This document shows, piece after piece, positions 31,500 through 37,074 of a stretch of 37,074 nucleotides of DNA. Position 1 is the first letter of the stretch. The number at the start of each line of letters is the position of its first letter. Location of the stretch: IMG/VR virus record IMGVR_UViG_3300013131_000113, positions 1 to 37,074 of that record, one strand, 5' to 3'. The stretch comes from a virus. Both the position numbers and the translations under genes were made by a program. The notes beneath the pieces are model-generated. The model was not told where the DNA came from. It saw nothing but the letters and a program-made list of their open reading frames with translations, and made no database searches.

Positions 31500-33497
31500 A
31501 TGAACGAAACAATGGACGACGACGACAAAACCACCAGCAGAAAGAAATCTGAATCGGGAACCCCCGTGTTGGATAATTTCTCACGGGATTTGAACAAGTT
31601 GGCAACCGAAGGCAAACTCGACCCTGTCATCGGACGGGAACGGGAAATCCTCCGTATTGCTCAGATTCTCTCCCGTAGGAAGAAGAACAATCCAATTATC
31701 TTGGGTGAACCCGGTAGTGGTAAGACTGCTATTGTCGAAGGATTGGCAATGAAGATTGTTCAAGGGGAATGTCCCAAGAACTTGTTGGACAAACGTATCG
31801 TTACTTTGGACCTGACCGCTGTGGTTGCCGGTACCAAGTATCGTGGACAGTTTGAAGAACGTCTTAAGGTTATCTTGGAAGAACTTCAAAACAACCCCAA
31901 CATCATCATCTTCATCGATGAGATTCACACCTTGATTGGTTCAGGTAATTCATCAGGTTCTTTGGATGGTTCCAACATTTTCAAACCGGCTCTTGCTCGG
32001 GGTGAACTTCAATGTATCGGAGCTACCACCTTGGATGAATACCGTAAATCTTTTGAGAAGGATGGAGCTCTTGAGCGTCGATTCCAAAAGGTTATCGTTG
32101 ACCCATCAACGGTTTCTGAGACCATCGAGATTCTCAAGAACATCCGTGATAAGTACGAAGCCTATCACAAGGTTTCATACTCGGATGAGATTGTCGAACT
32201 CTGTGTCAAACTCGCAGACCGTTACATCACAGACCGTGAGTTCCCTGACAAAGCATTCGATATCTTGGATGAGGTTGGTGCTCGCTCCCAAACCGACCAA
32301 AAAATTCCCGAGTCAATCGAGAAGCTCAAGAAGGAGGCTGCAGATGTGAAACAACAGAAGATGAACGTTGTTAAACGTCAGAATTACGAACAAGCGGCTG
32401 AGCTCCGTGACAAAGAACGTAAGGTCTTGGCACGACTCGAAGCTGAAAAGAAGAAGTACGAGGAAGAGTTTGCCTCTACTCGTAATCCCATCTCCGCAGA
32501 ACAAGTCTATGATGTGGTTTCCTCGATGACCAAAATCCCCGTGAATAAGATGTCCATTGACGACACCAAGGCACTTATCAACATGGATAAGTCTATTCAA
32601 GGTAAGGTCATTGGACAGGACGAGGCAATTGAGAAAATCGTCAAGTCCATTCGTCGTAATCGTATTGGAATCAAAGACCCCAACCGACCGATTGGTTCGT
32701 TTATCTTCTTGGGTTCAACGGGTGTTGGTAAAACACACTTGGCTAAACAAATTGCCAAAGAGATGTTTGGCTCTGAAGATGCTCTTATCCGAGTGGACAT
32801 GAGTGAATACCAAGAAAAACACACCGTATCTCGTTTGGTTGGAGCACCTCCAGGATATGTGGGTTACGAAGAGGGTGGACAACTTACCGAACAGGTAAAG
32901 AACAAACCTTACTGTGTAATCTTGTTCGATGAAGTTGAGAAGGCTCACAAAGACATCTTCTCAATCCTTCTTCAGATTCTTGACGATGGTCACGCAACCG
33001 ATTCACTCGGTCGTAAAATCAACTTCAAGAACACCCTTATCATCATGACCACAAACCTTGGGGTCAAGAAACTTCAAGACTTCGGTTCAGGTATTGGCTT
33101 CTCGTCCAACAAGTACTCAAACGAGGAAGCTAAGAAACAAATCCTTATGAAGGAAATGAAGAACTTCTTCTCTCCTGAATTCTTGAACCGTATCGATGAC
33201 ACCATCGTATTCAAGACCTTGAACAAGGAGAATATCGACCAAATCGTTAGTTTGGAACTCAACAAACTGATGGGACGTATGAAGGAGTTAAAGTACGAAT
33301 TCACTTACGACAAAACTTTGGTTGATTACATTTCCAAAATCGGTTTCGATGAGGTCTATGGAGCACGTCCTATCAAACGGGCAATCCAAGACAAGATTGA
33401 AGACTACATCTCAGAATTGGTTCTCACCGAGAAAATCAAGGAAGGGAAGAAGTACAAACTTAAAGTCGAAAACGAGGAAGTGAAACTCGGTAAGTAA
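31500..33497 (+). CDS. clpC: ClpC-type double AAA+ unfoldase without N-domain
   Basis: The protein has 665 residues, shorter than cellular ClpC (about 810-850), because the N-terminal Clp repeat domain is absent: only a 20-residue charged tail precedes TPVLDNFSRDLNKLATEGKL. AAA1 has Walker A GEPGSGKT (69-76) and Walker B FIDE (138-141). The middle domain carries a UVR-like helix, NYEQAAELRDKERKVL (295-310), which marks ClpC rather than ClpA. AAA2 has GSTGVGKT (405-412), pore loop GYVG (452-455), LFDE (475-478) and IGF (532-534), the ClpP-docking loop. It should therefore unfold substrates and feed host ClpP. Codons lean to G/C third positions (AAG, CTC, ATC), unlike neighbours, which suggests recent transfer. 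A terminator follows. Confidence 0.92.
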   Translation: MNETMDDDDKTTSRKKSESGTPVLDNFSRDLNKLATEGKLDPVIGREREILRIAQILSRRKKNNPIILGEPGSGKTAIVEGLAMKIVQGECPKNLLDKRIVTLDLTAVVAGTKYRGQFEERLKVILEELQNNPNIIIFIDEIHTLIGSGNSSGSLDGSNIFKPALARGELQCIGATTLDEYRKSFEKDGALERRFQKVIVDPSTVSETIEILKNIRDKYEAYHKVSYSDEIVELCVKLADRYITDREFPDKAFDILDEVGARSQTDQKIPESIEKLKKEAADVKQQKMNVVKRQNYEQAAELRDKERKVLARLEAEKKKYEEEFASTRNPISAEQVYDVVSSMTKIPVNKMSIDDTKALINMDKSIQGKVIGQDEAIEKIVKSIRRNRIGIKDPNRPIGSFIFLGSTGVGKTHLAKQIAKEMFGSEDALIRVDMSEYQEKHTVSRLVGAPPGYVGYEEGGQLTEQVKNKPYCVILFDEVEKAHKDIFSILLQILDDGHATDSLGRKINFKNTLIIMTTNLGVKKLQDFGSGIGFSSNKYSNEEAKKQILMKEMKNFFSPEFLNRIDDTIVFKTLNKENIDQIVSLELNKLMGRMKELKYEFTYDKTLVDYISKIGFDEVYGARPIKRAIQDKIEDYISELVLTEKIKEGKKYKLKVENEEVKLGK

Positions 33498-35712: not shown

Positions 35713-35735
35713 ATGACAATAAATACTTATCTTTG
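35704..35735 (+). promoter_or_regulatory. Host-type promoter for the oxygenase gene (decides its start)
   Basis: TTTTG (35704-35708), a 19-base spacer, TATCTTTG (35728-35735). Transcription would start near 35742, so the ATG at 35713 cannot be used and the ATG at 35743 is at or next to the first mRNA base. Confidence 0.75.
35717..35725 (-). promoter_or_regulatory. Putative late promoter TATTTATTG for 35712
   Basis: The minus strand reads AGTATTTATTGTCATATG, with the box ending four bases before the ATG. It overlaps the + strand host-type promoter for the oxygenase. Confidence 0.5.
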
Positions 35736-35742
35736 TAGAGTT

Positions 35743-36477
35743 ATGTTAAGTAATAAGACACTAAGAAACATCGACGAATACGCCAGAGCGTTTCAAACCG
35801 ACACACCATTCAATCACATTGTTATGGATGACTTCTTCCGTGAGGATGTCATAGATAAACTTTTAGATGAAGTTGAGTTTATCTCTTCTAACCCATCAGA
35901 AATTTGGAGATTTGTTGGACATGGGGAATACGACCAACATGAGTCACAAGTTAACAAAAAACAAATCTATGAATTCGGTAACATGTTACCAACTATGCAA
36001 GAGGTCATTAAGTATTTGAATTCACCTTTTTTCTTAGGTATTGTGTCCAAAATTACAGGTCTTGAAAACTTGACTCACGAATCAAATGGTTATGCTAACG
36101 CCGCGTACCACCAAAAAGGAAGAGGTGGAAGATTAGAAGTACATCATGATTTTAATGATAGCCAAGTTAGACCTGACCTTTTCAGACACGTAAATCTTTT
36201 GGTGTATCTAAATGCGTATTGGGACCAACTTTGGAATGGTGATTCGGAATTGTGGTATAAAAATATGTCAGGTCCTTGTAAAACAATTTCCCCTATAAGT
36301 AACCGTGTTGTAATGTTCAATATCGATAAAGCACCTCACGGTCACCCACATCCCTTGACTTGTCCTGATGGAATCACCAGAAAAAGTTTAGCTCTATATT
36401 ACTATAACAATAAAAAACCTGAGTTTGAATTAGTTAGTAGAGCAATTTGGAAATCTGAAATAGATAATTTGGAATAA
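35743..36477 (+). CDS. 2-oxoglutarate/Fe(II)-dependent oxygenase (prolyl-hydroxylase type)
   Basis: The protein has 244 residues from ATG 35743. FNHIVMDDFFREDVIDKLLD is the usual start of P4H-like proteins. The iron ligands are clear: H134-x-D136 in GRLEVHHDFNDS and the distal His (H199) in APHGHPHPL. Arg213 in TRKSLALYYYNN is the 2OG-binding residue. VNLLVYLNAYW is the jelly-roll core. It hydroxylates a side chain (Pro, Asp, Asn or Lys) or a sugar or base. Phage 2OG oxygenases are frequent in marine T4-like genomes. The promoter places it among early, host-type units, so a host or ribosomal target is possible; this is not proven. Confidence 0.88.
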   Translation: MLSNKTLRNIDEYARAFQTDTPFNHIVMDDFFREDVIDKLLDEVEFISSNPSEIWRFVGHGEYDQHESQVNKKQIYEFGNMLPTMQEVIKYLNSPFFLGIVSKITGLENLTHESNGYANAAYHQKGRGGRLEVHHDFNDSQVRPDLFRHVNLLVYLNAYWDQLWNGDSELWYKNMSGPCKTISPISNRVVMFNIDKAPHGHPHPLTCPDGITRKSLALYYYNNKKPEFELVSRAIWKSEIDNLE

Positions 36478-36499
36478 CACCATTCAATACTTATCTTTG
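36468..36499 (+). promoter_or_regulatory. Host-type promoter for the tmRNA
   Basis: TTTG (36468-36471), a 20-base spacer, TATCTTTG (36492-36499). A 21-base stretch (36486-36506) is identical to 35722-35742 at the oxygenase promoter. The first tmRNA base (36519) lies 19 bases after the -7 element, leaving a short 5' leader for RNase P to remove. Confidence 0.75.
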
Positions 36500-36518: not shown

Positions 36519-36907
36519 GGGGGTGACCGGTATTGATTGGCAGGGTTAGTCATACGGGGCATGCGGTGAGAAGTTTCCTATCACCTTAATCTACGGAGGC
36601 AAAAACCAAACGGCGAAACTTTCGCAAAACTCGAGGCAGTGGGTCTTCTCTCTGCTGAGGAAGTTACTGTAGCCTAAGGCTATATTAACAATGGGTCGAT
36701 GGACATATAACCTAGAAACAGAAGTCCCTACGGTGTGGTTTCTACCTTAAAAGGAATGGAGGTTATGTTTGGTGTTCTACCGATTTGAGTGAACACCCCA
36801 CAGTTGCTGGTGACGATGGCAAAATAGAAACCAGATATTTCGGAGGGTGTGAAAAACCCTGACCTAAGCATGTAGTCCTTTATGGGTAGACTGAGCAAGA
36901 CGCGGGT
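36519..36907 (+). ncRNA. ssrA: tmRNA (SsrA), 5' exon up to the T-loop
   Basis: The 5' end GGGGGTGACCGGTATTGATT matches the tRNA-like acceptor and D-arm start of tmRNA. GGGGCATGCGGTGAG matches the conserved helix that follows. PK1 is formed by GGTGA/TCACC, with loop GTTTCC pairing with GGAGGC (36595-36600). The 3' part CCTAAGCATGTAGTCC and GACGCGGGT matches the downstream helix and the T-arm of bacterial tmRNA. tmRNA rescues stalled ribosomes with SmpB and adds a degradation tag. The T-arm is cut after GCGGGT at 36907 by an intron, so the molecule cannot work until spliced. The acceptor 3' half is beyond the window. Confidence 0.92.
36612..36677 (+). other. tmRNA tag reading frame (21 codons + TAA)
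   Basis: Counting about 11 bases after PK1, as in E. coli, gives the resume codon GGC at 36612. The frame reads GETFAKLEA, continues VGLLSA and ends EEVTVA, with TAA in the loop of a perfect hairpin TAGCC-TAA-GGCTA. The start GET agrees with the Gly-Glu start of Bacteroidota tags. The end VTVA differs from the usual LAA. The other two frames give basic or over-long peptides with no stop in that hairpin. The frame is inferred. Confidence 0.7.
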
Positions 36908-37074
36908 TAAGAATCGAGCCCCTTCATATCGTGAGATATGTCGAAAATCGGATGAATTCAGGGGAAGTCCTTCGGGATAATCCTGAGCCAAGCCTGGTAG
37001 GAACAGGAAGGTGCAGAGACTAGTGGGTGGTAGACGCTTCTACCGTAATACCACATTAGCGTCCGACATCTTGA
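36908..37074 (+). ncRNA. Group I intron (IC3-like) in the tmRNA T-loop, 5' part
   Basis: P1 forms between exon GGGU plus U36908 and AGCCC (36917-36921), with the diagnostic U-G pair at the 5' splice site after 36907. P2 is CATATC-GTGA-GATATG (36925-36940). The core follows: GAATTCAGGGGAAGTCC (P4), a UUCG-capped P5, ATAATCCTGAGCCAAGCC (P4'/P6) and GGAAGGTGCAGAGACTA (P6'/P7). These match the order and wording of tRNA introns such as that of cyanobacterial tRNA-Leu. A P8-like hairpin (GGTGGTA/TACC) starts at 37026. The second P7 strand (expected TAGTCC-like), P9, the terminal G and the 3' exon lie outside the window. An open frame in P8 or P9 cannot be judged. Confidence 0.87.

Follow-up and report, generated by a model that had tools for sequence, protein, structure and literature searches.

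Bacterial tmRNAs interrupted by group I introns are the closest described relatives of the locus considered here. The main text of a survey of such genes lists 883 unique intron-form sequences from at least 21 phyla, all of them interrupted in the TψC-loop, at four subsites: subsite 7 is found mostly in Bacillota, 8 in Saprospiraceae, 3 in Bacteroidia, and 2 in Anaerolineae and one member of Myxococcota (PMC11915505). As there described, these introns resemble the phage introns reported below in most respects: both sit in the TψC-loop, follow the rules of a U·G pair at position −1 and a terminal omega-G, use subsites already known (2 and 3), mostly come without a homing endonuclease, and have a P7.1 region, the description of which agrees with the phage intron. 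The first-pass annotation of our locus, which spoke of ‘a few’ bacterial introns at or near the T-loop, was right that the site is a known target and wrong about how few there are. Phages, too, encode tmRNAs; the 2025 database contains 79 from bacteriophages (PMC11915505), and among huge phages there are some that encode both tmRNA and SmpB (PMC7162821). These genes are like the one described here, and one contig of our phage group carries SmpB as well, but they are not described there as interrupted, and the main text of PMC11915505 makes no mention of an intron-form tmRNA in a phage. The tmRNA intron itself is therefore of a known kind; we found no published report of the phage setting, of the two minor subsites together within a single group of phages, or of the gain/loss polymorphism described below.

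The DNA analysed (the window) is the whole of IMG/VR record IMGVR_UViG_3300013131_000113, 37,074 nt; position 37074 is therefore the end of the contig, and the interrupted gene is cut there. The contig is from a tailed phage, with genes for a T4-like major head protein, portal and terminase. The T4-like head protein recurs in 20 of 28 contigs, and the best matches of the portal include Flavobacterium phage immuto and Rhodothermus phage RM378, plus a Microcystis phage. A promoter-like sequence, TTTG-N20-TATCTTTG (36468..36499, plus strand), lies 20 bp upstream of where the tmRNA begins; its consensus is of the −33/−7 type of Bacteroidota. The pattern TTTGN{19,21}TANNTTTG occurs five times in the window, where 1.2 occurrences are expected. 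The portal matches and this promoter together make a Bacteroidota host likely. Directly upstream of the tmRNA lies a 2OG-Fe(II) oxygenase gene (35713-36477, plus strand), which adjoins the tmRNA in the uninterrupted relative L004 too.

The 5' exon of the tmRNA (36519..36907, plus strand, as are all features of the window given below) begins with GGGGGTGACCGG and runs from the mature 5' terminus as far as U54 in the T-loop. It is 91% identical to that of L004, which RF00023 matches over 374 of 374 positions with 80.7 bits; the same model leaves the 5' part in the window unscored because the gene there is interrupted and cut. ARAGORN detected a tmRNA neither in the window nor in any of the loci scanned (L002–L011), L004 included. 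The 5' strand of the acceptor stem, GGGGGUG (36519..36525), finds its 3' partner in L004 and in the intron-bearing relative L008, and with CACCUCC of the relatives it forms G3·U70, the alanine identity pair. A tag reading frame occupies 36612..36677, with GGC, by analogy, as its probable resume codon. The 5' strand of the T-stem is GCGGG (36902..36906), and the T-loop breaks off after GCGGGT (36902-36907). Taken together, L004 and the 5' exon of the window provide what defines an ssrA product: a tRNA-like domain with G3·U70, D-loop and T-arm, plus the tag ORF.

What follows the break is a group I intron, of which the window holds the first 167 nt (36908..37074). RF00028, the one RNA family found by Rfam in the window, matches 36898-37074 (52.6 bits, E 9.8e-11) and is truncated at the 3' end. 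Within the intron, the P10 strand AAUCGA (36912..36917), complementary to UCGAUU of the relatives' 3' exon, is followed by the internal guide sequence GCCC (36918..36921), which pairs in P1 with GGGU of the exon (36904-36907), so that the U·G pair at the splice site is 36907·36918. The P2 hairpin, CAUAUC-GUGA-GAUAUG (36925..36940), is kept in 16 distinct versions. P3 joins UCGGAUG (36948..36954) to CGUCCGA (37060..37066); P4 (36958-36962/36982-36986, spanning 36958..36986) encloses P5, a predicted hairpin (36967-36970/36975-36978); P6 (36987-36989/37010-37012, spanning 36987..37012) contains P6a (36993-36996/37004-37007). The 5' strands of P7, GACUA (37018..37022), and of P8, CAUCUU (37067..37072), have their partners past the contig end, that of P7 being UAGUC in the relatives; the window thus ends before the 3' strands of P8 and P7, the omega-G and the 3' exon.

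Between P7 and P3' lie two hairpins, P7.1 and P7.2 (37023..37054); the segment, 33–36 nt long, folds into this shape in most of its 21 distinct versions. Among the group I classes, P7.1/P7.2 is a feature of the IA type, and by its predicted fold the intron is therefore IA-like. The subtype first assigned, ‘IC3-like’, is ruled out by the same hairpins; IC3 introns of the cyanobacterial tRNA-Leu type, unlike the phage tmRNA intron, are without them. The P7/J6-7 consensus GGUGCAGAGACU is common to both.

The missing half is supplied by relatives. IMG/VR was scanned with intron and tmRNA patterns, which gave 45 complete introns (31 distinct), plus partial loci. The intron of L008, 195 nt in full, is 100% identical to that of the window over all 167 nt; after these come the 3' strands of P8 and P7, the omega-G, and then TCGATTCCCGCCACCTCCACCA. 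The P8 and P7 3' strands and a 3' exon are likewise present in the 44 other complete loci, and full-length RF00028 matches in the relatives score 71.6–88.6 bits. The first-pass annotation had predicted a second P7 strand, a terminal G, and a 3' exon of the form TCGA..CCCGC with an acceptor strand complementary to GGGGGTG; all of these are found in the relatives. Its central claim is right as well: the T-loop of a phage tmRNA gene is broken by a group I intron, and the U-G pair of P1 falls exactly at the break. The terminal base is omega-G in 41 of the 45 complete introns, L008 included. The remaining four introns (L039, L056, L057 and L068, all at subsite 3) carry a final A in place of the expected omega-G, which may mean that splicing is inefficient in some copies. 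One further locus, L120, has two tmRNA-like matches ~620 bp apart, one of them very divergent.

Because MAFFT misaligned the 3' ends belonging to the two subsites, the counts for P1, P10 and the T-arm were made by parsing each intron directly. In 31 of 31 distinct introns the base at −1 is U, paired with G in a P1 of 4–7 bp, and every distinct intron forms a P10 of 3–7 bp. After splicing, the T-stem is paired at 5/5 positions in all 31 (and in all 45 complete introns). Over 25 distinct rows of the spliced T-arm, 100% of cells are paired, against 80.7% in shuffled and 38–65% in slid alignments; 24 cells change on both sides, and the covariation score is 0.50 versus 0.09. As the two strands of the T-stem flank the intron on opposite sides, this covariation across the intron is, among the sequence comparisons, what argues most strongly for joined exons in the mature RNA. 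Compensation is seen in the acceptor stem as well: L009 has GGGGATG/CATCTCC in place of GGGGGTG/CACCTCC. In the core helices P3, P4, P6, P6a, P7, P7.1 and P8, 98.3% of positions are paired, versus 28–41% when slid, and seven pairs change on both sides: three in P6a (100% paired), two in P7.1 and two in P8 (98.9% paired). P3 is paired at 99.5% across the 31 distinct introns. P4 is invariant (paired in 31/31) and P7 never varies either, so both are neutral as evidence; P5 and P9 are variable or lost among relatives. The minimum-free-energy fold of L008 recovers P2, P3, P4, P5, P6, P6a, P7.1/P7.2, P8 and the T-stem (z −2.3). The sequence elements of a group I intron are there: a P3-P4-P6-P7-P8 core with a covariance-model match, U(−1)·G in P1 and, through the relatives, omega-G. 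So are those of an intron-form tmRNA, namely a T-loop that carries such an intron at one of the known subsites (2 or 3) and a T-arm that splicing would reconstitute.

Two classes of intron occur in these phages, at subsites one nucleotide apart that are served by the same core. Introns at subsite 2 have the guide GCCC, measure 192–197 nt and have lost P9; those at subsite 3 have the guide GACCC, measure 220–226 nt and retain P9. In L006 (GTGGGT|AAAAATCG, with the 3' part cut after TCGAT) a single T precedes the intron, which places the 5' splice site after U54, that is, at T-loop subsite 2; we infer this number by mapping the site onto the loop description of PMC11915505. In that survey's account of bacteria (PMC11915505), subsite 2 is confined to Anaerolineae and one member of Myxococcota and subsite 3 to Bacteroidia, whereas one phage group has both; unlike the bacterial set, moreover, the phage set combines near-identical cores with empty sites in near-identical genes. 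Between L009 (subsite 3) and L008 (subsite 2), the identity of the introns is 98% from P4' to P7', 58% in P1-P2 and 25% at the 3' end. The simplest reading of such a shared core with differing ends would be recombination that swaps the site-specifying ends. A single intron in L025 has the 5' end of subsite 2 and the 3' end of subsite 3; it probably arose as a chimera during assembly, but might be a natural recombinant.

The exon tree of the tmRNAs comprises 138 phage rows, 93 uninterrupted, 22 with an intron at subsite 2 and 23 at subsite 3. Intron presence and absence on this tree requires 21 changes, at least 15 of them forced by well-supported branches; in about fifty related virus contigs, the same intron has been gained or lost at two neighbouring positions. 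L008 carries the intron and L013, L021 and L022 do not, with exons 99–100% identical; the same holds for L018 (intron) and L017 (none), with exons 96% identical. L010 (subsite 2) and L009 (subsite 3) have exons 96% identical and introns just 73% identical; conversely, L018 and L008 share introns that are 94% identical in exons only 64% so. The 21 gains and losses, with near-identical introns in tmRNAs whose exons are ~65% alike, show on these comparisons that the introns have recently been mobile between phage tmRNAs. The first-pass annotation held that such an intron in a T4-like Bacteroidota phage would be notable; the phage is T4-like and probably of Bacteroidota, and the intron is no single oddity but recurs, and moves, within a group of phages.

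The introns are too short for an endonuclease gene and have no ORF inside, and a search for a homing endonuclease as neighbour turned up sparse GIY-YIG/HNH matches in the contigs, without a link to the tmRNA. Since the intron lacks an endonuclease of its own, recombination or homing in trans is the most likely route; reverse splicing is possible. When bacterial genomes were scanned with exact patterns for this intron or its junction, nothing matched and hence no bacterial donor emerged; a plasmid search returned matches to the intron core only, none covering most of the query. An intron at subsite 7, the most frequent position among bacteria, was sought with a pattern that left the site open; all 87 matches had an intact T-arm.

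Other phage group I introns have a similar core and differ in location. In Vibrio and Klebsiella phage records the core is 75–80% identical over ~170 nt. The phage introns examined lie in protein genes, near tRNAs or in intergenic DNA, some with endonucleases, whereas introns of the window's type lie in tmRNA, measure 192–226 nt and have no ORF. Isolated phages gave matches to the intron core only, and the examples opened were in psbA, terminase, ribonucleotide reductase, a tRNA cluster and intergenic DNA, none in a tmRNA. Flavobacterium phage immuto (L169, MW353176.1 144931-145186) has a group I intron of similar P7.1 architecture downstream of its tail fibre gene, not in a tmRNA. Members of the same core family also interrupt tRNA genes of phages: in L035 (~12057, minus strand) the intron follows the GTA anticodon of a tRNA-Tyr, and in L041 (~10975, minus strand) it lies in another tRNA. 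A further member, in L065, lies in an apparent protein gene.

Is the interrupted tmRNA used? One might suppose that the intron is real and the phage tmRNA a degenerate, unused passenger, a landing pad for a selfish intron. The host should have a tmRNA of its own, just a single contig of the group was seen to encode SmpB, and four introns lack omega-G, all of which would suit a passenger. Such a gene, however, would hardly keep its T-stem and acceptor pairs by compensatory changes across the intron; nor would it keep its tag frame, which is conserved with synonymous changes from GETFAKLEAVGLLSAEEVTVA* in the window to, for example, GNTFAKLQAVGLLRTEEVTVA and GNVYNNMEVAGLLATSKVAA in others. A conserved ClpC-like gene also neighbours the tmRNA. 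In the window, this is an AAA+ unfoldase of 665 aa (31500..33497; Pfam AAA/AAA_lid_9/AAA_2/ClpB_D2-small) with an IGF ClpP-docking loop. The loop is IGF or VGF in the family, and in all 16 loci holding both genes the unfoldase shares the strand of the tmRNA and stands 2.9–5.7 kb upstream; the family is present in 25 of 30 contigs, further from the tmRNA in a few, and ClpP in 11 of 30. We therefore consider an unused tmRNA unlikely: tag conservation and the ClpC/ClpP/SmpB context support, as far as gene content and conservation can, a functional phage tmRNA, and the ClpC-like unfoldase with tmRNA (and ClpP) is a possible phage tag-and-degrade module. The phage tags themselves are long (~21 aa) and conserved, and end in VTVA or KVAA instead of ALAA. 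The SmpB gene encodes a full-length protein of 146 aa (161 bits; L177:631-1071, minus strand) and belongs to the 142-kb L067 contig, the tmRNA of which bears an intron.

In a second alternative, the intron would be a regulatory switch, delaying tmRNA maturation until the GTP or translation status of the infected cell is right. By general group I chemistry, the mature RNA is made only after a GTP-dependent reaction, and introns turn up across many separate lineages of tmRNA, both of which would suit such a switch; against it, the many close relatives that do well without an intron (93 rows of 138) better fit a neutral or selfish element, and we regard a switch as improbable. The remaining alternative, a broken tmRNA with a stray intron piece and a contig end that is a chimeric assembly join, could appeal to metagenomic contigs that end in or near the intron (the window's own, L006, L025, L027 and L062) and to the chimeric look of L025, but it is scarcely credible beside 45 complete loci from many samples in which an intact 5' exon is followed by the intron and by a 3' exon that matches; one of these loci (L008) has the identical intron with full flanks, and contig ends at this place are expected if co-occurring phages share near-identical introns.

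The reading we hold with high confidence is that a T4-like phage, probably of Bacteroidota, carries a tmRNA with a spliceable, mobile IA intron. The phage tmRNA would be transcribed from the Bacteroidota-type promoter, with the compact ORF-less intron placed at subsite 2, after U54 and before U55 of the T-loop. Before splicing, GGGU of the 5' exon would pair with the guide GCCC to form P1 with its U·G; guanosine would attack the 5' splice site; P10 (AAUCGA with UCGAUU) would then align the 3' exon for ligation, which would restore GCGGG-UUCGAUU-CCCGC and the acceptor stem. The mature tmRNA could then accept alanine and add its tag to stalled proteins, and intron copies would move between phage tmRNAs. 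We infer, and given the host's own tmRNA only infer, that phage ribosome rescue depends on this splicing.

A wider proposal can be offered tentatively: phages may be both reservoir and vector, among the tmRNAs of which ORF-less IA introns circulate, switching between subsites 3 and 2 by exchange of P1-P2/P9 ends around a shared core, with the interrupted tmRNA part of a phage tag-and-degrade module with a ClpC-like unfoldase, ClpP in some phages and SmpB in one. In bacteria, tmRNA introns have been met here and there, with little to show how they spread; phage genes that are nearly identical apart from having or lacking the intron, or from having it at one or the other of two adjacent sites, make gain, loss and site shift directly testable. 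Introns of ~195 nt without P9 are useful compact ribozymes. The polymorphism suggests that phages carry tmRNA introns, and these viruses look like a natural store of them. If the phage tmRNA works, it would be a phage-borne ribosome-rescue tag, dependent on a ribozyme for its maturation and placed beside the phage's own Clp unfoldase.
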